Origin: an uncultured Bacteroidales bacterium
Lineage (GTDB): Bacteria > Bacteroidota > Bacteroidia > Bacteroidales > FEN-979
Length of the DNA stretch: 64,000 nucleotides
Assembly (NCBI GenBank): GCA_903885595.1
Contig: CAISJJ010000250.1
Location: 1 to 64,000 of the forward strand
Reading direction: 5' to 3'
The notes under the pieces: generated by a model
The model's input: the letters and a program-made list of their open reading frames with translations, nothing else
Told to the model about the DNA's origin: nothing
The model's database searches: none
Shown: positions 9,971 to 38,466 of the stretch, one piece after another
How the letters are laid out: the number at the start of each line of letters is the position of its first letter
Numbering within the stretch: the stretch's first letter is position 1
Position numbers and translations under genes: made by a program

Positions 9971-11770
9971 TTATCCTTCCACACGGTAGTTGAATTCGGA
10001 AGACCGGTATGTTTCTTCAATGATCTTGCTATATTTTTCCATGATGAATTTACGCCTGAGTTTCAAAGTAGGTGAAATTTCACCTGATTCCGTGGACCAT
10101 AATGCATCTAAAAGTCTGATTTTCTTTATTTTTTCAGTTTGATCAAGATCAAGGTTAAATCGTTCCACTTCATGTTTGATCCGGCGGATAATTTTTGGAT
10201 TTTTCACCGCTTTTTCCCTTGAAACAAAAGCAATATGTTTGACTTCACACCAGTTTTTCAGATGTTCAAAATTCGGAATGATTAGGGCTGCTGCATAATT
10301 CCGGTTCTCCCCTACCACCATGATGTGTTCAATAAACGGTGATTCCTTGATCTTTTGTTCGATGGGCTGCGGGGCGATATATTTACCTCCCGAGGTTTTG
10401 AAAATTTCCTTTTTCCGGTCAGTTATTTTCAGAAATTTACCATCTTCGATTACACCAATATCGCCTGTATGAAACCAACCATCGGCATCAATCACCTCTG
10501 CTGTTTTTTCAGGACGGTTGAGATAACCCATCATAATGTTAGGTCCTTTGCATAATACCTCTCCATCTTCAGCAATTTTCATCTGGTTCCCTGTCAGCAA
10601 CGGTCCAACTGTGCCGAATTTCATGCAACCTGGTTCAAACCGGTAACAAGTTACGCCAGGAGAGGTTTCCGTGAGGCCATAAGCCTCCAGGATGGGTATC
10701 TTTGCAGCCCAGAAAATGCGCGCCAGCCGCGGATGCAGTGAAGCGCTGCCCGACACGATGAATTTTAGTTCTCCACCCAGCGCCGCACGCCATTTGCTAA
10801 AAACAAGCAGGTTGGCAATCATGAGTTTAACATCATAAATCCAACCCCGTGAATGGTCCAGTTCATATTTATGTCCCTGCCTCAGCGCCCAGAAAAACAA
10901 AATTTTCATCGGGAGGGGCAGCTTGCGCCCTTTGGTGACAATTTTGTTGTAAATTTTCTCGAAAACCCTGGGAACCGATGCAAATCCATGAGGTTTCACC
11001 TCTCTTATATACTCTCCCAGCTGGTCAATATCCTGAACGTAAAATATTGAAACGCCAAAGGACTGGTAAACATACCCTGCTGTTCGCTCATAAACATGAC
11101 AGAGCGGCAGGAAACTGATTGCACGGTCATGCATTTTAAGCGGCGGAATTTCTGCAAGGGCTTTGTAATTGGTTACAAAATTATTGTGCGAAGACATGAC
11201 TCCTTTCGGCCTTCCGGTAGTCCCGGAAGTATAAATGACCGTTGCCATGTCGCCTGGAAGAATGGATTGTTTGATTTTCTCTAGATCCCTGGGATCCGGG
11301 TACTTTTTGCCCAATTCAAGGATCTCATGCCAATTCCGGATCCCTTTGATGGGTTCGATTGAAAAAACTGCTTTCAACCCGGCGATCTCAGGTAATACCT
11401 TTTTTATCCTCTCATAAATTTCCTTGTCAGAGAATACCAGGTATTCAATTGCCGAATCATTAAAGATATAACGATAGTTTTCTTCACTGATGGTCGGATA
11501 AACCGGAATCTGAATAGCGCCGGTCTGAAGGATGCCCATGTCAAAAAAATTCCATTCAGGACAATTATTCATTACGGTGGCGATTCGGGTTCCTTTTGAA
11601 ACCCCAAGCGCCAGTAAACCCAAACTAATGAGGTCGCTGTATTGGATATATTCTTTGGCGGTAAAACGCACCCACTCCCCATCCTTTTTGATGTTGAAAA
11701 GGTCAGGAATGGAATTGTATTCATCCTTGTATAATTCCAGTAGATCGAATATCCTTGTGATTTGTTTCAT
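9971..11770 (-). CDS. long-chain acyl-CoA synthetase (AMP-binding)
   Basis: YTSGTTGRPKGVMSSHNN, YGLTETSPGV, GWFHTGDIG, ITDRKKEIFKTSGGKYIAPQPIE. Confidence 0.93.
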   Translation of the reverse strand: MKQITRIFDLLELYKDEYNSIPDLFNIKKDGEWVRFTAKEYIQYSDLISLGLLALGVSKGTRIATVMNNCPEWNFFDMGILQTGAIQIPVYPTISEENYRYIFNDSAIEYLVFSDKEIYERIKKVLPEIAGLKAVFSIEPIKGIRNWHEILELGKKYPDPRDLEKIKQSILPGDMATVIYTSGTTGRPKGVMSSHNNFVTNYKALAEIPPLKMHDRAISFLPLCHVYERTAGYVYQSFGVSIFYVQDIDQLGEYIREVKPHGFASVPRVFEKIYNKIVTKGRKLPLPMKILFFWALRQGHKYELDHSRGWIYDVKLMIANLLVFSKWRAALGGELKFIVSGSASLHPRLARIFWAAKIPILEAYGLTETSPGVTCYRFEPGCMKFGTVGPLLTGNQMKIAEDGEVLCKGPNIMMGYLNRPEKTAEVIDADGWFHTGDIGVIEDGKFLKITDRKKEIFKTSGGKYIAPQPIEQKIKESPFIEHIMVVGENRNYAAALIIPNFEHLKNWCEVKHIAFVSREKAVKNPKIIRRIKHEVERFNLDLDQTEKIKKIRLLDALWSTESGEISPTLKLRRKFIMEKYSKIIEETYRSSEFNYRVEG

Positions 11771-11796
11771 ACTATCCTAACGAAAAAAATATTTAT

Positions 11797-13563
11797 TTAT
11801 TCGAACAGTTTTGCAATTTTATCTTCATATTTTTTTGCGATCACATTACGCTTCAGCTTCATGGTCGGTGTGATTTCGCCGGAATCGAAGGTCCATTCGG
11901 TATCAAGCAGATCCCAGCTTTTAATTTTTTCGGTGTCCCCGAAACACTTGTTATACTTATCTACCTCCGTCTGAAAACGTTTCCTGATGCGGGGTAAATT
12001 GATCATTTCAATGTTCGTTGTGTATGGAATTTCTTTGACGGTACAATATGATTTCAGAAAATTAAAATCAGGAACGATAAGCGCACCCGCGAATTTTTGA
12101 TTTTCCCCAACAACAACAAGCTGGTCAATAAACAATGATTCCTTGAAAGTATCTTCGATCGGCTGCGGACTGACATATTTGCCAAAGGATGTTTTGAAGA
12201 GTTCCTTTTTCCTGCCCGTGATTTTCAGATGACCTTCCGGTTCAATGCGCCCAAGGTCACCGGTGTGGAACCATCCGTCAGGTCCTATCGCATCAGTTGT
12301 CATTTCCGGTTCTTTAAAATAGCCCAGCATGACATTTGGCCCTTTGCATAAAATTTCTCCATCATCGGCAATTTTAACCTGAACTCCCTTTAAAACCTTG
12401 CCAACTGTGCCAAACTTTAATCCGTTTTCGGTAAGGTCATTCACTGCAATAACCGGCGAAGTTTCTGTTAACCCGTACCCCTCCAGCACATTGATCCCGG
12501 CACAGGTAAACATCCTGGCCAACCGCGGTTGTAATGCGGCTCCACCAGAAATCACAAGGAGGTGCTTTCCTCCCAGTGCATCGCGCCATTTAGCATATAC
12601 AAGCTTGTCGTAAATTTTACGTTTCAGTTCATAAAACCATCCATTTGCGCCCTTTAGTTCATACCTCAATGCCAGGTGAAGCGCCCAGAAAAATATCCAG
12701 CGTTTTATACCTGTGAGTTTATGACCCGTGGCGAATAGTTTATCATAGATCTTCTCCAATAACCGGGGCACCGTGGACAAGATGTCCGGTTTAACATCTT
12801 TCATGTTATCGGTAATGGTCCCTAAATTCTCGGCATAGTAGATCGAAAATCCAAGGAACTGATAAACATAATTCAACATCCGTTCATACACATGGCATAA
12901 AGGCAGATAGCTCACTGCTTTTGCCTCTTCACCAAAAGGAGGGATATAGGCACAAACCTTGAAATTCGAAATAATGTTATGGTGTGTAAGCATGACACCT
13001 TTCGGATTGCCGGTAGTTCCTGACGTATAAATTATGGTGGCAACATCATCAGGTTTGACTGTTCCTTTTCTCAGCGTGAGGCCTTGTTTATCGGCATTTT
13101 GCCTGCCAAGTTCAATGAGTTCATTCAGATGCTTATGCTCATGATGGTCTTTGTATGTAAAAATCCCTTTGATATTGGTCATCTCGGGTAAGATATGATC
13201 AATTTTTCTCAGGAGTTCCTGTCCGGAAATGAAAACATAGGTCACCTCAGCATGACTCAGAATGTATTTATAATCCGATTCGCTGATCGTAGGATAAATC
13301 GGGACATGTATCGCCCCAACCTGGAGGATGGCCATATCCACAAAATTCCATTCAGCCCGGTTAGAGCTGATTTGTGCAATTTTATCACCCGGTTGAACGC
13401 CCAAAGCCAGGAATCCGTAACTTATATTGTCGACGATCTCCCTGTATTGTTTTATGCTGTATTTACACCATTCCCCATTTTCCTTGGATGCCACGACATC
13501 CTCTTTAGGTTTAAATGTAGCTTCATGATAAGGTAAAAGATCAAAGATCCGGGTAACTTCCAT
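11797..13563 (-). CDS. long-chain acyl-CoA synthetase (AMP-binding), paralogue of the downstream gene
   Basis: YTSGTTGNPKGVMLTHHN, YGLTETSPVI, GWFHTGDLG, ITGRKKELFKTSFGKYVSPQPIE. Confidence 0.93.
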   Translation of the reverse strand: MEVTRIFDLLPYHEATFKPKEDVVASKENGEWCKYSIKQYREIVDNISYGFLALGVQPGDKIAQISSNRAEWNFVDMAILQVGAIHVPIYPTISESDYKYILSHAEVTYVFISGQELLRKIDHILPEMTNIKGIFTYKDHHEHKHLNELIELGRQNADKQGLTLRKGTVKPDDVATIIYTSGTTGNPKGVMLTHHNIISNFKVCAYIPPFGEEAKAVSYLPLCHVYERMLNYVYQFLGFSIYYAENLGTITDNMKDVKPDILSTVPRLLEKIYDKLFATGHKLTGIKRWIFFWALHLALRYELKGANGWFYELKRKIYDKLVYAKWRDALGGKHLLVISGGAALQPRLARMFTCAGINVLEGYGLTETSPVIAVNDLTENGLKFGTVGKVLKGVQVKIADDGEILCKGPNVMLGYFKEPEMTTDAIGPDGWFHTGDLGRIEPEGHLKITGRKKELFKTSFGKYVSPQPIEDTFKESLFIDQLVVVGENQKFAGALIVPDFNFLKSYCTVKEIPYTTNIEMINLPRIRKRFQTEVDKYNKCFGDTEKIKSWDLLDTEWTFDSGEITPTMKLKRNVIAKKYEDKIAKLFE

Positions 13564-28713: not shown

Positions 28714-30066
28714 CTAGATGCTTCGTTCTTCCAGGGGAATATAATCCCGTGAGGGTTCGACTGTTTTATATGCAGGGCGGATAATCCTGCGACCGCTGAT
28801 CAACTCTTCAAGCCGGTGTGCACACCATCCGCTGATGCGGGAAATTGCGAATAACGGAGTGAAGAGTTCCTTGGGTATCTTCAGGCATTCGTAAACGAAT
28901 CCGGAGTAAAAATCGACATTCGGGGAGATGAGTTTGTCCTGGGTGCCTTTGAATTCATAGAAAATTCCAGGGCCGATACGTTCGATGGATTCATAGAGTT
29001 TCATCTCATCTTCCCTTCCTTTTTCAATGGAGAGCAGTCTGGCCTTTTCTTTTAACAGGATCGCCCTTGGATCGGATACTGTATAAACGGCATGGCCAAA
29101 ACCATATATTTTCCCTGATTTATCGTGAACCTCCTTGCGGGTAATCTTTCGCAAATACTCGGCGACTTCATCATCATTCTCCCAGTTCTTAACATTGCTC
29201 TTAATATTCTCCATCATCTCAATTACCTGGATGTTTGCACCACCATGCAGTGGTCCCTTGAGCGAACCAATGGCTGCAACAATAGCCGAATAGGTATCAG
29301 TACCGCTTGAACTTACAACCCGTGTGGTGAATGTTGAGTTATTACCTCCGCTGTGTTCAGCATGGAGCACCAGTGAAAGGTCAAGCAATTCTGCTTCCAG
29401 CGCAGTGTAATCATTCCCTTTTAGCATGTAAAGAAAATTTTCTGCTGTGCTGAGTTTTTTATCCGGGTACCTTACTGTAAGCGTATCATAATAGATCAGG
29501 TGCCTCATGGCATTATAAGAATACACCGCAATGGTTGATATCTTGGCAATCAGGCTGATGGATTGTCTCAAAATATTCTCAATCGACGTATCATCGGCCT
29601 TTGCATCCAGGGTATATAATGCCAGGATTGAACGTGCAAGCATATTCATAATGTCCTTGCCTTTCATTGTCAATATCATGTCCCTGTTGAAATTTTCAGG
29701 CAGAGCACGGAGTTCAGCCATGCCAGCCGAAAACATTTCGAGTTCCTCATTCAAAGGAAGACGGCCAAAAAGAAGCAAAAAAACCGTTTCATCGAAACCG
29801 GGGCGTTTTGCTGTCTGGGATCCACGTACCAAATCCCGGATATCAATCCCCCGGTATATTAATTTACCATCGATTGCCTCAAGTTTGCCATCGATTTTTT
29901 CATATCCGACTACGCTGCCCACACGGGTGAGACCAACAAGTACACCTGTGTGATCGGCATTGCGAAGTCCTCGTTTTACATCAAATTGTTTAAATAGGCT
30001 CTCTTCTATTTTACAGGAATCTTCTGTCAGTTTAGCCAGATCCTGAAGGTAGTCTGCTATTATCAT
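28714..30066 (-). CDS. gltA: citrate synthase
   Basis: IDGKLIYRGIDIRDLV, LSLVLHAEHSGGNNSTFTTRVVSSSGTDTYSAIVAAIGSLKGPLHGGAN, YGFGHAVYTVSDPRA. Confidence 0.94.
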   Translation of the reverse strand: MIIADYLQDLAKLTEDSCKIEESLFKQFDVKRGLRNADHTGVLVGLTRVGSVVGYEKIDGKLEAIDGKLIYRGIDIRDLVRGSQTAKRPGFDETVFLLLFGRLPLNEELEMFSAGMAELRALPENFNRDMILTMKGKDIMNMLARSILALYTLDAKADDTSIENILRQSISLIAKISTIAVYSYNAMRHLIYYDTLTVRYPDKKLSTAENFLYMLKGNDYTALEAELLDLSLVLHAEHSGGNNSTFTTRVVSSSGTDTYSAIVAAIGSLKGPLHGGANIQVIEMMENIKSNVKNWENDDEVAEYLRKITRKEVHDKSGKIYGFGHAVYTVSDPRAILLKEKARLLSIEKGREDEMKLYESIERIGPGIFYEFKGTQDKLISPNVDFYSGFVYECLKIPKELFTPLFAISRISGWCAHRLEELISGRRIIRPAYKTVEPSRDYIPLEERSI

Positions 30067-30073
30067 ATTATTT

Positions 30074-32335
30074 CTATTTTAAGGTTTGCATATAATTAAG
30101 GGCGCTACCGGCATTGAACCATCGGATCTGCTGGTCGCTGTAACTATGGTTAATGGCAATTTCTTCCGCTGATCCATCGCTGTGATGCAGTTCCAATCTT
30201 AACGGTTTTCCAGGCAAAAAAGTATCAAGGCCGGTCAGGTTTAACACATCATCCTCCATGATCTTGTTGTAATCAGAAGGCGAAACGAATGTCAGTGCCA
30301 GCATTCCCTGTTTTTTCAGATTGGTTTCATGAATGCGGGCAAAAGATTTCACAAGAACTACCCTGACTCCGAGATGACGTGGTTCCATCGCCGCATGTTC
30401 GCGCGAAGATCCTTCGCCATAATTTTCATCACCGACAATTATTGTCGGGATACCTTTGGACTTGAAGAACCGCGCAGTTTTTGATACTTCGCCATATTCT
30501 CCTGTCTCGGGATTTTTTACGGCATTGGTTTTTTCATTGAAATAGTTAACAGCTCCCATCAGCAGGTTATTCGAAATATTATCGAGATGTCCGCGGTATT
30601 TGAGCCAGGGGCCGGCCATGGAGATGTGGTCGGTTGTACATTTTCCCTTTGCCTTTATGAGCAGGCGCATACTTTCGATATTTTTACCGTTCCAGGGTTC
30701 AAATGGTTCAAGAAGTTGCAGCCGGTCAGATGCCGGACTCACACTTACTTCGACTGCTGATGCATGTACAGGAGGCGCAAGATAACCTGCATCCTTCACC
30801 TCAAAACCATCTACCGGCAGTTCAAACCCGTGTGGTTCATCAAGTTTCACTTCCTGCCCATTTTCGTTAACCAGTGAATCCGTTAACGGGTTAAAGGTGA
30901 GACTCCCTGCCAGTGTCAAGGCAGTAACTATTTCTGGTGATGCAATAAAGCTGTGGGTTCCTGCATTCCCATCATTTCGTTTGGCAAAATTCCGGTTAAA
31001 TGAATTCAGAATAGAGTTTTTGCGGTCGGGATTATCAATTTTCCGCGCCCACTGTCCGATACAAGGGCCACAGGCATTGGCCATAATTATGCCTCCTATG
31101 GCATGGAAGACTTCCAGAAGACCATCACGTTCGCAGGTGAAGCGAATCTGCTCTGATCCCGGGGTAACAATAAATTCCGACTTGACTTTCAGGTTTTTCT
31201 CAGAGGCTTGTCTCGCCACAGAGGCCGCACGGGAAATATCCTCATAGGATGAATTGGTACAGGAGCCGATCAGGCCAACTTCCAGCGTTTCCGGGTAATT
31301 ATTTTCTTTCACGAATGCTTTGAACTCTGAAATCGGGTGTGCCACATCCGGTGAAAAAGGGCCATTAATATATGGTTCAAGCCCGGAAAGGTCTATCCTG
31401 ATGAATTGATCATAATAGAGCTCCGGATTCATTCTGACCTCGGAATCGGGGCAAAGATATTCGGAATAGTTATCAGCCATCGCGGCAATTTCTTTTCTCC
31501 CGGTGGCCTCCAGGTAGCTCCTCATTTTTTCATCATATGAGAACAGGGAACATGTGGCCCCGATTTCGGCTCCCATATTGCAGATGGTTCCTTTCCCCGT
31601 GCAGGAAAGCGATGCTGCTCCTTCACCATAGTACTCAACAACATACCCGGTTCCCCCTTTTACAGTCAGGAGCCCGGCAATTTTCAGGATCACATCTTTG
31701 GCTGATGCCCAGCCTGATAATTTCCCGGTTAGTTCAATACCGAGGATTTTCGGCATTTTCAATTCCAGAGGCATGCCCGACATAACATCGACGGCATCAG
31801 CACCCCCAACGCCAATAGCCACCATCCCAAGACCACCTGCATTTGGGGTATGTGAATCGGTTCCGATCATCATTCCTCCGGGAAATGCATAGTTTTCAAA
31901 GATAACCTGGTGTATGATCCCTGCGCCGGGTTTCCAGAAACCGATTCCATATTTTGCTGAAACCGTTTCCAGAAAATCATACACCTCCTTGTTTTGTGCC
32001 AGGGCTGTCGTTAGATCTGTTTTTACCCCAAGCTGTGCCTGGATAAGATGATCGCAATGTACTGTTGAGGGAACCGCAGCAGTCGGTCGGCCGGCAGTCA
32101 TAAATTGCAACAGGGCCATCTGTGCTGTAGCATCCTGCATTGCAACCCTGTCGGGCAGAAAATTGACATAATCAACACCCCGGTGATACGGTTTTTGCGG
32201 ATCAGGATCAAATAAATGGCCGTAGAATATTTTTTCAGTAAGGGTCAAGGGTTTGTCAAGTAATGATTTCGCATGGGAGACCCTATTCGAAATTTTTTCA
32301 TAACTTTTTTGTATTAACTTAGTGTCCAGCAACAT
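30074..32335 (-). CDS. acnA: aconitate hydratase
   Basis: 753 aa; [78 protein letters not shown]. Confidence 0.94.
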
Positions 32336-32452: not shown

Positions 32453-35400
32453 ATGTTGGCTTTGGAATCTCTTCTGGAACAATGGCAAACCATCAGGAAT
32501 CCGGATATAAACAGCCATCAACTGGCATTGAAAATTATTGAAGAGACAGAAAATATTTTTGCCTCAAACCAGGAAGATTCTCTGAAACAAACATTCTGGT
32601 TTGATTGGCTGAACCTCACGAAAAAGACCGTGTTTCTTCAGGCCCTTGGAACCCATACAGACCGTATCCGATGGTCGGAGGTTGTTTTTCGCATCATACA
32701 GTCAACGAATTATAATCTGAAGGACATGATGGAACAGCGTGTTGCTGAACATCCCAATCATGTCTTATTTAAAGATATGTCATCGGCTACCGCGATCGAC
32801 TGGAACTATGAACAATCATATCGTCATTTTCGTGAGATTGCCAGCCTCTTTTTTAAGTCAGTGCAGCATGCACCGCGTGTTGCATTTTACAGCGAAAATT
32901 GTTTTGAAGGAGCATGTACCGACCTGGCTTGCTTGATGTTCGGCATATTTGACACGCCGCTCAGCCCTCATTTTAAGATTGATGTCTTATTGCCGATTTT
33001 CAATGAACTAAAAATCAATATTGCCCTGGCTGATACAGAAGAACGATTGTCGGTCCTTGAAAAAATCAATGAGAAAGCAGATAACCGGTTCACGATATTT
33101 TCATTGCAACCCGTCTCCCATAAGATGCACCAAATCCCATACATGGTTGCAGAGGCTAAAAAAATTTCCCGGTGGGACATGGATGTGATCCTTAACCGTC
33201 AACCTGCCATGAAAATCAACCAGGTCGCCACAACCATGTTTACTTCCGGCAGCACCGGTTTACCGAAGGGGGTTTCATTTTCTATATATAACATTATTTC
33301 AAAGCGTTTTGCACGCGCTGCAGCATTGCCTGAGGTTGGAGATGAAGTATTTCTTTGCTATCTGCCGTTGTTCCACACCTTTGGGCGTTACCTCGAGATG
33401 ACTGGTGCCATATTCTGGAACGGAACCTATATATTTTCAGGCAACACCTCCTCGGAAACGTTGTTGTCGCTCTTTCCCAAAATGAACCCGACCGGATTCA
33501 TCAGTATTCCACTCCGATGGCAGGAGCTCTATGAACGATGCCAGGAAAGAATCAGCCATGTCGAAAGCAGGGAGCTCAGGGAACAAGCTGTTCGTGAAAT
33601 TGTTGGAAGCCGGTTGCATTGGGGTTTATCAGCTGCGGGATACCTTGATCCGTCTGTATTCCGTTTTTTCAATGAGTATGGAATTTACCTGAACAGCGGT
33701 TTCGGAATGACAGAAGCTACCGGGGGAATTACCATGACTCCTCCCGGCAAGTACAAAGATTTCACGGTTGGCATACCGTTACCTGGTGTCAGAACAAGGT
33801 TAACCACCGATTCTGAGCTGGAGCTCAGCGGTCACTACATTGGCCGGTATCTTGAATCAGCAGGTCCGGATGATATAATCCCTTACCCTGTTTCGGCTTC
33901 AGAAGATCATTGGTTGCCCACCGGTGATGTGTTTAAAATAGGAAACGACGGTTTTTATCAGATCATTGACCGGGTGAAGGATATCTATAAAAACAACCGG
34001 GGTCAAACCGTTGCACCACAGGTTATTGAGAAGAAATTCTATAAAGTTCCCGGCATAAAAAATGTATTTTTGGTTGGCGACAACCGGCCTTATAATGTTT
34101 TACTGATCGTGCCTGATAAGGATGACCCAATTTACCATTCACTTCAGGGCGACAATCTGAAAGAATACTATCACCAGATTGTCATGACAGCCAATAACGA
34201 TGTAGCCACATATGAGCGTGTAATCAATTTTACAGTTCTTGATCGCGATTTTAGTCATGAAAAAGGTGAACTTACGCCAAAAGAATCGTATAACAGGAAA
34301 GTGATTGAGACCCATTTCAAAGAGGTCATTGAGATCCTTTACCAGAGTAATACCCTGCGTATCGATTCTGGTGAATTTACGATACAGATTCCAAAATGGT
34401 TTTTCCGCGATCTGGGAATCCTCGAAACCGATATCATTTATGAACGCAATCGGTTGGTTAACCGCCGGAACAATGCAACATTGCTCATCAGGAAAATGAA
34501 AGGCGACTGGTTTCAGATCGGACATTTAAAATATCAAATTGTTTCAAACATCCTCGATATCGGTGTGTTGACCCGTCAGCCAAAGATCTGGATCGGGAAT
34601 CCTGCCATGATCGCATTTTGCCCCGTTAAAGAAGGCTGGGATCTGCCATTGAATTCGATTTCTGAAAGCATTTCCTTACCAGGATTCAAACAACTTGATG
34701 AGAAACACTTCCCAATTCTTAAATCTATCCGCGATCAACATCTGATTGATACCAACAACCTGATTTTCCGTACCTATTTCCGGGATGTTGAAGAGGCCTT
34801 CAAGGCCACCGAAGAGCTGGGTAAAATTCTCACCAATGCCGAGCCCCGGCTGGCCATTGCCATCAGGCACAGGCTTGAAGCGCTGGCGTACCATCCCGAT
34901 GAAGAGATCCGCTGCCTGGCATACCGTCTAATCCTTCTCAAAGCTCCGGCTCCGGAGGACATTCAGAATATGCCAGCATTCATTGAATCGGGCCTCACTT
35001 TTCTCAACGAAAAATCGATCCGTGAGATTGCCTTGAGTAATTTCGGAAAGCACAGACTCGATGCGCTTAAACAACGGTTATACTGGTACCGGACGCACCT
35101 TAACTGGCCTGTATCAAAAAAACAACGACGCGCCTTTGAAGATGTCCTGGGCATGTTATATAACTTCGCCGTGCTGCATCTTGCATATTATGTGCCTGTG
35201 AGGGCTGAATTATCGCGATGGATACTACATAAACAAGACCGCTACCTTTCGAAAAAAGCAGAGCATTATTTCAATTCACTCGCCGGGGTTTTTGAGAGAG
35301 ATATTGAAAGTAAATCGATAAGTTATTCGCTGCCGGAATGGGAAGAAAAGCTGGTGTTTGAACATGGGATTTCTGAAACGGAGAAGCGACGGATTTCTAA

Positions 35401-37042
35401 AATTTTTCAGTCCAGCACGTTTCTGCAGGAGAGTATCATTCTTACATTCAATGAGCAGGATTTTGACCTTGCAGATGTTCCGGCAAAAGGTATCTGGATC
35501 TTGCGATTACTTGCTTACAAGGAATTTAAACACTACCGTTTGTCAATCAACACCGTAGAAGGCAAACATTTTGACCTGCATATGGTGTTCAGTGAAAATC
35601 CTGCTTACAGGCCACAACCAGATACTTTTTACTGGCTTGCTTCACTTGCCGGATTCCCTTATGGACCAGCCGTTGCGCCGTTACTTGGCAGCAGCAGGCC
35701 CAGCCTCGGAGTCCTTACAACCCAATACATCGGAGGCTTAACGGCATGGGATAAAATCAGGGAGTTGTCGGAGATTCACCGTTCATCCGGTTATATCAAA
35801 GGAAACGCCTGGAGGAAAATCTACATCAAATCGTTTGCAGTTATTTTCAAAGCATGGCATCACAGTGGTAAACAAATTGTACCCGGCGCTATCTCACCGG
35901 CCAATGTGGCTGTTCCCGAAATGGATTTCCGTGAAAGCGCTGTCGTATTGTCCCTTGCCGGGTGGTCTCCATATAAAAACACGTTATCGCTGGTGAACCC
36001 AATGCTTCAGGATTATTATTGCAAAACTGCATCCATTTACCCCTGGTGCCGCCAACAGTTAGATATTACCTGGATTTTCGATGCCTGTATCGAAGCGCTT
36101 GGTAAAGAAGAGGCATTCATTTTCTTTCGGGCATTGCAAGATGATATAAAAGACAAATCGTTAACCTGTTTTGATTCATCTGACCTTCAAACACACCTGA
36201 ATCAATATATTGAAAAGACGATGAACCGGTATTACATGCCAGTTGCGCTTTATAGCGCCATCGACCATTACCAGGACTGGTATAAAATGAACCCGCTGAC
36301 AACTGCTGCAGCCAAGGAACAGACCCTCGTTGAACTGCTCGAGCTTTACAAATTACAACAGTATGCAGAACTTTTGAGATACTTTTTTTACAGGCACACC
36401 TATTTTTCCGATGCCTCTGAGAATATCGTGGTTGCATTTGACAGGCTTATTTCCAGGATGGAAGAACAGCCTGACGGACTGGCCATCCAGTTGATCGAAC
36501 TTTCAGACCTGCAGTCGGAACTGAATAAAACAGATGACAAGAACATTTTCAGCAGAATGGTATTTCCAAGACTACACGGAGAACAGGGCATTGATTTTAT
36601 GAAAGTGGGCGAGAGCAAAAAGAAACATCTTGTGGTTCGATTCACGATACAGGATAAATCGGGAAAACGATATATCCTGCGAGAGCCTATCGAAGCCCGG
36701 GAAACAGGTCAGCTTTATCAACTTTTTTATCGTGAAAAATACCCTAAGGAAATTGCAGATAACGATCATCAGTATGTTCTCACCGATGAGACTGATAAAA
36801 TCGTAGGAGGCATTACATTCAGGATCATTGAAGATCACAACATCCTGCTCGATGGTATTGTCGTCACATCCACCCTGCAGGGAAAGGGAATCGCCTCGGG
36901 CATGATCGAACATTTTTTTGCCAGTATGGCGGCACGCGGAGTTAAGGTTGTCAAAGCACATTTCCTTTTTGGCAACTACTATCTCAAACATTTTTTTGAA
37001 GTTGACAGGAAATGGGGTGCGCTGATTAAAAATCTGAAATAG
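32453..37042 (+). CDS. large multidomain protein: N-terminal AMP-binding synthetase + uncharacterised middle + C-terminal GNAT acyltransferase
   Basis: 1529-aa single ORF; MFTSGSTGLPKGVSFS, SGFGMTEATGGITMTPPGKY, LPTGDVFKIGNDGFYQIIDRVKDIYKNNRGQTVAPQVIE; C-term LDGIVVTSTLQGKGIASGMIEHFFASMAARGVKVVKAHF (GNAT motif A). Confidence 0.9.
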   Translation: MLALESLLEQWQTIRNPDINSHQLALKIIEETENIFASNQEDSLKQTFWFDWLNLTKKTVFLQALGTHTDRIRWSEVVFRIIQSTNYNLKDMMEQRVAEHPNHVLFKDMSSATAIDWNYEQSYRHFREIASLFFKSVQHAPRVAFYSENCFEGACTDLACLMFGIFDTPLSPHFKIDVLLPIFNELKINIALADTEERLSVLEKINEKADNRFTIFSLQPVSHKMHQIPYMVAEAKKISRWDMDVILNRQPAMKINQVATTMFTSGSTGLPKGVSFSIYNIISKRFARAAALPEVGDEVFLCYLPLFHTFGRYLEMTGAIFWNGTYIFSGNTSSETLLSLFPKMNPTGFISIPLRWQELYERCQERISHVESRELREQAVREIVGSRLHWGLSAAGYLDPSVFRFFNEYGIYLNSGFGMTEATGGITMTPPGKYKDFTVGIPLPGVRTRLTTDSELELSGHYIGRYLESAGPDDIIPYPVSASEDHWLPTGDVFKIGNDGFYQIIDRVKDIYKNNRGQTVAPQVIEKKFYKVPGIKNVFLVGDNRPYNVLLIVPDKDDPIYHSLQGDNLKEYYHQIVMTANNDVATYERVINFTVLDRDFSHEKGELTPKESYNRKVIETHFKEVIEILYQSNTLRIDSGEFTIQIPKWFFRDLGILETDIIYERNRLVNRRNNATLLIRKMKGDWFQIGHLKYQIVSNILDIGVLTRQPKIWIGNPAMIAFCPVKEGWDLPLNSISESISLPGFKQLDEKHFPILKSIRDQHLIDTNNLIFRTYFRDVEEAFKATEELGKILTNAEPRLAIAIRHRLEALAYHPDEEIRCLAYRLILLKAPAPEDIQNMPAFIESGLTFLNEKSIREIALSNFGKHRLDALKQRLYWYRTHLNWPVSKKQRRAFEDVLGMLYNFAVLHLAYYVPVRAELSRWILHKQDRYLSKKAEHYFNSLAGVFERDIESKSISYSLPEWEEKLVFEHGISETEKRRISKIFQSSTFLQESIILTFNEQDFDLADVPAKGIWILRLLAYKEFKHYRLSINTVEGKHFDLHMVFSENPAYRPQPDTFYWLASLAGFPYGPAVAPLLGSSRPSLGVLTTQYIGGLTAWDKIRELSEIHRSSGYIKGNAWRKIYIKSFAVIFKAWHHSGKQIVPGAISPANVAVPEMDFRESAVVLSLAGWSPYKNTLSLVNPMLQDYYCKTASIYPWCRQQLDITWIFDACIEALGKEEAFIFFRALQDDIKDKSLTCFDSSDLQTHLNQYIEKTMNRYYMPVALYSAIDHYQDWYKMNPLTTAAAKEQTLVELLELYKLQQYAELLRYFFYRHTYFSDASENIVVAFDRLISRMEEQPDGLAIQLIELSDLQSELNKTDDKNIFSRMVFPRLHGEQGIDFMKVGESKKKHLVVRFTIQDKSGKRYILREPIEARETGQLYQLFYREKYPKEIADNDHQYVLTDETDKIVGGITFRIIEDHNILLDGIVVTSTLQGKGIASGMIEHFFASMAARGVKVVKAHFLFGNYYLKHFFEVDRKWGALIKNLK

Positions 37043-37102
37043 ATTTTTATTTCTAATTTTACAACCTGTAATGGAAGGTCATTGGTGTGAATAAATAAGT
37101 TG

Positions 37103-37134
37103 GCAAGTTGGCAAGTTGGTAAGTTGGTAATCGG
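37103..37134. repeat. GTTGGYAA octamer array (4 units) in the leader upstream of icd
   Basis: gttggcaa gttggcaa gttggtaa gttggtaa; boundaries approximate. Confidence 0.8.
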
Positions 37135-37200
37135 GTAGACTGGTGAGCGGCCTTTCGGATTTGATTGAATCCTAATTTAATTTTAATAAAACACACTTTT

Positions 37201-38466
37201 ATGAACGGAGAAAAAATCACTCTGATAAACGGGAAGTTGTTTGTTCCCAACTATCCGGTAATCCCTTTTATCGAAGGCGACGGAACAGGTCCTGACATTT
37301 GGAATGCAAGTGTCCGCGTGATGGATGCCGCTGTTGAAAAAGCATACGGCGGAAAACGAAAAATCATCTGGAAAGAGGTATTGGCAGGAGAGAAAGCATT
37401 CAAAGAAACCGGTGAGTGGCTGCCTAGGGAGACCCTTGACCTAATCCACGAGTACCTGGTTGCCATCAAAGGGCCACTTACAACCCCGGTTGGAGGAGGC
37501 ATCCGATCTTTGAATGTTGCCCTGCGTCAAATCCTCGATCTTTATACCTGCCTGAGACCGGTCAGATATTTTAAGGGAGTGCCTTCCCCGGTAAAACATC
37601 CCGAAACAACCGACATGGTTATCTTCCGTGAAAACTCCGAAGATATATATGCCGGAATTGAATGGATGCAGGGAACCTCTGATGCTGAAAAAGTTATCAG
37701 ATTTCTCATCGACGAGATGGGTGTAAAGAACATCCGTTTTCCCGACTCCTCATCCATCGGCATAAAACCCGTATCGAAAGAGGGAACCGAAAGACTTGTC
37801 AGGGCAGCTATTCTTTATACGCTCGAACATAAACGGCCCTCTCTTACACTTGTTCACAAGGGGAACATCATGAAATTCACTGAAGGTCAGTTCAAGCAAT
37901 GGGGTTATGAGCTTGCCGAACGTGAATTCGGAGACAAGGTATTTACCTGGATGACCTACGACAAGATCAAGGCAAAGGATGGAGAAGCTGCTGCAGATTT
38001 TGCACAAAAAACAGCCGTTTCACAGGGAAAAATCATCGTAAAGGATGTTATCGCTGATGCATTTTTGCAACAGATTCTAACCCGTCCGGCTGAGTATTCC
38101 GTGATCGCCACATTGAATCTCAATGGTGATTACATTTCCGATGCACTGGCTGCAATCGTTGGCGGTATCGGCATTGCACCCGGCGCGAACATCAATTATG
38201 TGACTGGTCATGCAGTTTTCGAAGCAACACATGGTACAGCACCCAAATATGCCGGCAAAGACCAGGTTAACCCGGGTTCCGTAATCCTGTCAGGGATGAT
38301 GATGCTGGAATATATGGGATGGATGGAAGCTGCAAAACTTATTATAAAGGGGCTGGAAGGAGCCATTCAGAAAAAAAGGGTAACCTACGACTTTGAGCGG
38401 CTGATGGAAGGTGCCACCAAACTTACATGCTCAGGGTTCGGCACCGAGATTATTGCCAATATGTAA
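37201..38466 (+). CDS. icd: isocitrate dehydrogenase (NADP), E. coli-like type
   Basis: [83 protein letters not shown]; start assigned at MNGEKITL. Confidence 0.95.

Follow-up and report, generated by a model that had tools for sequence, protein, structure and literature searches.

What does a protein do that begins like an acyl-coenzyme A (CoA) synthetase, ends in an acyltransferase domain and is encoded amid genes of the tricarboxylic acid (TCA) cycle? The question is raised by an open reading frame (ORF) at positions 32453-37042 of the forward strand in a 64,000-nucleotide stretch of DNA from an uncultured Bacteroidales bacterium (assembly GCA_903885595.1, contig CAISJJ010000250.1), here called the window. 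A first-pass annotation saw in this ORF a complete adenylate-forming module fused to a GNAT acyltransferase and proposed that one polypeptide generates an acyl donor and transfers it to a target, possibly a TCA cycle enzyme. The protein looks like an undescribed regulator of the citrate synthase step, since it is conserved over several phyla and lies repeatedly beside a citrate synthase gene. We tentatively favour a large regulatory acyltransferase, similar in principle to the bacterial lysine acetyltransferase Pat and acting where carbon enters the TCA cycle.

Architecture and distribution

The reading frame is free of internal stops and encodes 1529 amino acids in the following order.

32453..37042, forward strand: whole ORF, 1529 aa, with acyl-adenylate domain, beta-rich/helical region, kinase-like domain and GNAT
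32732..33823, forward strand: AMP-binding large domain, residues 94-457 (Pfam PF00501, E 3e-45)
33998..34348, forward strand: AMP-binding C-terminal subdomain (AMP-binding_C_3), residues 516-632 (Pfam PF23562, E 1e-10)
34361..35407, forward strand: predicted beta-rich part followed by a helical region, residues 637-985 (AlphaFold model)
35405..36442, forward strand: predicted protein-kinase-like domain, residues 985-1330 (AlphaFold, Foldseek)
36590..37039, forward strand: GCN5-like GNAT, about residues 1380-1529 (Pfam PF00583)

The Pfam match to Acetyltransf_1 covered residues 1426-1515 (E 4e-9), and a Pfam scan of the whole protein gave no match between AMP-binding_C_3 and the GNAT. An assembly or frame error joining two genes, or another fusion artefact, is excluded because stop-free full-length homologues recur across families and phyla, genomes assembled in one contig among them. 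In the window's family 28 of 36 genomes carried one. Of the order, 294 genomes were sampled and 24 proved to be carriers; for the phylum the figure was 21 of 396, one-contig genomes included, and for the phylum to which an Acidobacteria-labelled record belongs it was 22 of 247. Proteins of this architecture, about 1500-1650 aa long, occur in Bacteroidota, Acidobacteriota and several further phyla, with identities of 28-81 %. The best 80 loci in a collection of species genomes were labelled Bacteroidales, Chlorobi/Ignavibacteria, Kapabacteria, Zixibacteria, Acidobacteria, Aminicenantes, Calditrichaeota, Gemmatimonadetes, Krumholzibacteria and Deltaproteobacteria; these labels are record titles, several of them of metagenome-assembled genomes, and one record of the window's family was mislabelled Alphaproteobacteria. 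The protein is nearly always present in one copy per genome. One genome (G720, with locus L131) carried two copies, one near the window's clade and one divergent.

Conservation was assessed on 53 representatives from several phyla, each standing for a group formed at 60 % identity. All of them have the same architecture. The motifs TSGSTGLPKG, GMTEATGG, TGDV and QGKGIASGM of the first-pass annotation were all recovered in the protein, and chance was dismissed as their origin since most catalytic residues are invariant in the representatives at identities down to about 28 %. A loss of catalytic residues in both terminal domains was not found across the homologues.

Linkage with citrate synthase

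Neighbouring genes were clustered over 99 loci, which form 53 groups at 60 % identity and 19 groups at 50 %. Citrate synthase was the commonest neighbour family, found at 37 of the 99 loci and in 18 of the 53 groups; the next families reached nine groups, all within one clade, where they adjoin the citrate synthase gene gltA. With the 50 % grouping, 5 of 19 groups were linked to citrate synthase (binomial P 1e-6 when the chance level is set at 1 %, itself an estimate), and on the tree the linkage required nine changes; shared descent is not fully corrected for in either figure. The linked citrate synthases belong to two types with about 26 % identity, the PRK14032 type of the window and the Si/eukaryotic type (L080, L155, L212). 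The placement of gltA varied: across acn, directly upstream on the same strand at 19-391 bp, or convergent downstream, the latter 1 or 110 bp from the homologue (L212, L092). At L080 and L087 an icd of the eukaryotic type occurs together with gltA near the homologue. The stretch upstream of the homologue at these two loci (L080 4764-7797, L087 2621-5654) holds this icd, a gltA of the Si type and a gene of about 136 aa, apparently of the YjbQ/UPF0047 kind. In the order sample citrate synthase was encoded by 24 of 24 carriers of the protein and by 144 of 270 non-carriers (Fisher P 7e-7); thus the protein was not seen without citrate synthase in this sample. A single citrate synthase was present in 22 of 25 carriers.

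The linkage might be a by-product of ancestral gene order, with a protein function unrelated to citrate synthase. The largest linked block is indeed one clade sharing the order hpnC/D/E-gltA-X-pyrG (X, the gene for the protein), and 62 of the 99 loci are unlinked. Against this stand the non-orthologous citrate synthases, in differing orientations and on separate branches of the tree, and the presence of citrate synthase in every carrier of the order sample, so that we regard a mere relic of gene order as very improbable.

The proposed association with TCA cycle genes therefore held and proved wider than stated, with gltA as the top neighbour across phyla, whereas acn and icd are neighbours mainly in the window's family. 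A TCA linkage restricted to the window is ruled out by the citrate synthase neighbours at 37 loci. A general link to acn and icd was rejected because acn does not recur beyond the window's family and icd is marginal there (P about 0.01-0.09).

Within the window, the ORF was confirmed to lie between a divergent acn and a same-strand icd.

30074..32335, reverse strand: acn, aconitate hydratase of the mitochondrial type (TIGR01340), divergent, with a 117-bp spacer to the ORF
28714..30066, reverse strand: gltA, citrate synthase of the PRK14032 type (NF010635), following acn
37201..38466, forward strand: icd, NADP isocitrate dehydrogenase (TIGR00183), ATG at 37201, 158 bp past the ORF stop

This gltA is the sole citrate synthase match in the window's genome. 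The order acn-X-icd is retained in nearly all carriers of the window's family, usually with gltA beside acn. In the presence/absence survey of this family, three genomes lacking the protein (G009, G023, G024) had no acn or icd matches either, and in G003 acn was missing and icd was kept. The spacer between ORF and icd contains a short tandem repeat with an 8-base unit (AAGTTGGC/AAGTTGGT) at window positions 37096-37140. Many relatives (e.g. L053, L068) carry a conserved gene of about 370 aa and one of about 2,400 aa after icd, both absent from the window.

The AMP-forming domain

The nearest solved sequence to the AMP-binding domain is the adenylation domain of an oxidoreductase of the carboxylic acid reductase type (6oz1). 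The motifs of the domain, and the window's two related synthetases, are located as follows.

33242..33271, forward strand: A3 P-loop TSGSTGLPKG, residues 264-273; T264, S265, G266, G269 and K272 invariant (n=53)
33704..33727, forward strand: A5 motif GMTEATGG, residues 418-425, conserved among the 53 representatives
33920..33931, forward strand: A7 motif TGDV, residues 490-493; D492 invariant (n=53)
34265..34300, forward strand: A10 loop GELTPKESYNRK, residues 605-616, with Ser612 in place of the canonical catalytic lysine
9971-13563, reverse strand: pair of FadD genes (long-chain acyl-CoA synthetases) in tandem, A10 lysines normal

In all 53 representatives the A3, A5, A7 and A8 motif residues of AMP-forming (ANL) acyl-CoA synthetases were either invariant or replaced conservatively. 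Besides the A3 residues and D492, the positions H308, E421, R507, K513, K610 and R615 were invariant, and residue 267 of the P-loop was S or T. The A10 catalytic lysine is missing: its column holds Ser or Thr in all 53, an assignment made because the family consensus GELTPKG(S/T)xxR aligns without gaps to GEISPTLKLRR and GEITPTMKLKR of the two FadD paralogues. Two residues upstream of this column stands the invariant Lys610. Thus the adenylate-forming module called complete earlier has its A3, A5 and A7 motifs but lacks the canonical A10 lysine. The acyl pocket of the domain, judged from its residues, appears open. Acetyl-CoA synthetase (Acs) has a Trp in the pocket that restricts the substrate to acetate; Gly418 aligns with its place, therefore an acyl group larger than acetyl may be accommodated. 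The tandem FadD genes, with their normal A10 lysines, are handy controls for the adenylation domain.

These residues bear on the proposal that the AMP-forming domain makes an acyl-AMP or acyl-CoA and that the GNAT then attaches this acyl group to a target protein, all in one polypeptide. The invariant A3, A4, A5, A7 and A8 residues favour such coupling, K610, likewise invariant, could take over from its position two residues from the A10 site, and the open-looking pocket (Gly418) could admit a fatty acyl group as donor. Characterised AMP-forming CoA ligases, however, have the A10 lysine in the active site and need it for the adenylation half-reaction, and its acetylation blocks adenylylation (PMC4053389), whereas Ser or Thr occupies this position throughout the family. 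Furthermore, nothing that could serve as a carrier or tether between the active sites was recognised: domain scans of residues 637-1330 did not find a carrier (phosphopantetheine) family of the kind that follows the A domain in NRPS and carboxylic acid reductase. The idea of a self-made acyl donor is thus weakened and finds no support, and we consider the coupled mechanism as a whole rather unlikely. Alternatively, the GNAT could acylate its own AMP-forming domain, e.g., at K610, and so stop an acyl-CoA supply beside citrate synthase, in parallel to Pat, which switches off Acs in trans by acylation. The invariance of K610 would suit such self-regulation, which we judge quite improbable, with the classical target lysine itself absent. 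The shifted lysine together with the retained synthetase motifs poses a testable question: does the domain still adenylate, or has it turned into a sensor?

The middle region

When the two middle parts were scanned against Pfam, the matches were scattered and at chance level, with nothing significant for residues 637-985 and no kinase family for the domain behind them. Structures were predicted with AlphaFold for residues 637-1529 (59 aligned homologues; mean predicted local distance difference test, pLDDT, 88; predicted template modelling score, pTM, 0.83) and separately for residues 985-1330 (pLDDT 88.7, pTM 0.87). Foldseek matched the longer model to PI3K/Vps34 kinases, over the helical and kinase parts, and to GNATs. 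The shorter model matched kinases broadly, with 266 matches at E <= 0.001 and a template modelling (TM) score of 0.58-0.61 by target for Bud32/PRPK. The predicted structure has the N-lobe sheet with helix C and the helical C-lobe of the kinase fold.

An active kinase was rejected because the catalytic aspartates are missing: the column of the HxD aspartate holds A, I, S, F or L in the window's clade, and that of the DFG aspartate is hydrophobic in nearly all representatives. Because both aspartates are absent, residues 985-1330 probably form a pseudokinase, as judged from sequence and model. The catalytic-loop Asn is retained in 48 of 53 representatives; in the divergent clade the register of the domain is less certain, and eight rows have an Asp near the HxD column. 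A kinase-like middle occurred once in nearly every carrier genome searched, and wherever an ORF of at least about 1500 aa was readable it lay within one, the exceptions being short or contig-edge frames.

The GNAT domain

The C-terminal domain has the GNAT fold and the motif A P-loop (R/Q-x-x-G-x-G/A), which reads QGKGIA in the window.

36851..36898, forward strand: beta4 acid D1467 and CoA P-loop QGKGIAS (residues 1476-1482), conserved in most of the 53 representatives

Position 1467 is D or E in 50 of the representatives, and G1479 of the P-loop is kept in 50 as well. The best solved relative is the GCN5 histone acetyltransferase, both by a profile from one clade and by a single sequence from the other; by fold, GCN5 was among the top GNAT matches (TM 0.64 by target), and E. 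coli PatZ (9it0) was also among the Foldseek matches. The C-terminal GNAT of the first-pass annotation is thereby borne out: it is GCN5-like, its CoA P-loop is intact and it has an acid on beta4. An N-acetylglutamate-synthase-like GNAT in the divergent clade was considered and dropped: three members showed no such Pfam family, and their top solved match was GCN5.

The protein could instead be a metabolic enzyme: rather than acting on a protein, it would activate a carboxylate and hand it to an amino acid or small amine produced close to the TCA cycle. Small-molecule GNATs are common, and solved ones such as diaminobutyrate acetyltransferase were among the weak matches. However, the nearest solved relatives are GCN5-type protein acetyltransferases, enzymes acting on small molecules do not usually contain an insert of about 700 residues with solenoid and pseudokinase, and genes for biosynthetic partners did not recur over the 99 loci. 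A role of this kind seems improbable.

Comparison with known systems

The closest known parallel is Pat/PatZ (YfiQ), the type I bacterial GNAT lysine acetyltransferase, which shares the synthetase-like N-terminus, the C-terminal GNAT and the link to acetyl-CoA metabolism. In Pat, with a total of about 880 aa, the synthetase part is an NDP(ADP)-forming domain of about 700 aa that has lost catalysis, whereas the protein described here, with about 1530 aa, has an AMP-forming domain with most motifs intact and about 750 extra residues that include a kinase-like fold. AMP-forming acyl-CoA synthetases (long-chain FadD, the A domain of carboxylic acid reductase) share AMP-binding, AMP-binding_C_3 and the A3/A4/A5/A7/A8 motifs, but in our protein the A10 lysine is replaced by Ser/Thr, the invariant lysine is shifted by two residues and further domains are fused. 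Compared with GCN5/PCAF, the acid is shifted by two residues, a bromodomain is absent and the context is bacterial and multidomain. With Bud32/PRPK and PI3K/Vps34-type kinases the predicted kinase-like fold is shared, as is the succession of helical region and kinase in PI3K, but not the HxD and DFG aspartates. AceK, the isocitrate dehydrogenase kinase/phosphatase, is a kinase-fold regulator of a TCA cycle enzyme; it was not among the fold matches listed, and our protein differs from it in a degenerate kinase centre and in its likely chemistry, acyl transfer.

Bacterial GNAT lysine acetyltransferases are grouped into types I-V, with an NDP-synthetase at the N- or C-terminus, a small ligand-binding domain, the GNAT alone or a tandem GNAT (PMC8556138, PMC6456759). 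By domain scan the N-terminal part of our protein is AMP-binding/AMP-binding_C_3, and it fits none of the five types. No description of this architecture was found in the open-access literature, subscription papers lying outside the search.

Proposed function

In the favoured reading, the GCN5-like GNAT would acylate one or more lysines of a protein partner, with acetyl-CoA as acetyl donor in the simplest case. Citrate synthase would be the likeliest partner; aconitase or isocitrate dehydrogenase may be further ones in the window's family. The AMP-forming domain may bind ATP or AMP together with a carboxylate or acyl-CoA and so control or feed the transferase, and the helical region and pseudokinase-like domain may provide scaffold and docking surface. 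The working principle would resemble Pat/PatZ, a synthetase-like sensor joined to a GNAT, with an AMP-forming instead of an NDP-forming synthetase family. Acetylation is known to alter the activity of citrate synthase and isocitrate dehydrogenase of E. coli (PMC11254643).

Several points weigh against the regulatory acyltransferase. A TCA cycle gene nearby is wanting at 62 of the 99 loci, and the P values of the Fisher and binomial tests ignore shared ancestry. In a genus of the window's own family (g4; L225 5727-5808, L226, L227) acn and icd are divergent and adjacent with 98 bp between the coding regions and no trace of the 4.6-kb gene; at this natural empty site the two enzymes therefore work without the protein. 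Aligned to GCN5, the beta4 acid stands two residues from the catalytic glutamate. GNAT domains can also acylate small amines. What the data establish is the architecture with its conservation and motifs, the folds as predictions and the linkage with citrate synthase; acyl transfer to a protein, its target, the acyl donor and the regulatory role of the synthetase are steps that we infer. A bolder version, doubtful at present, would be a sixth architecture of bacterial protein acyltransferases, present in several phyla, in which adenylation with a moved lysine, docking of citrate synthase by the pseudokinase and GCN5-like acylation together gate the flow of carbon into the TCA cycle.

Whether acetyl-CoA enters the TCA cycle depends on how citrate synthase is controlled. 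If the regulatory acyltransferase reading is true, the protein would add a new layer of this control in Bacteroidota, Acidobacteriota and related phyla, and it would extend the known bacterial acyltransferase architectures by a natural pairing of pseudokinase and GNAT.

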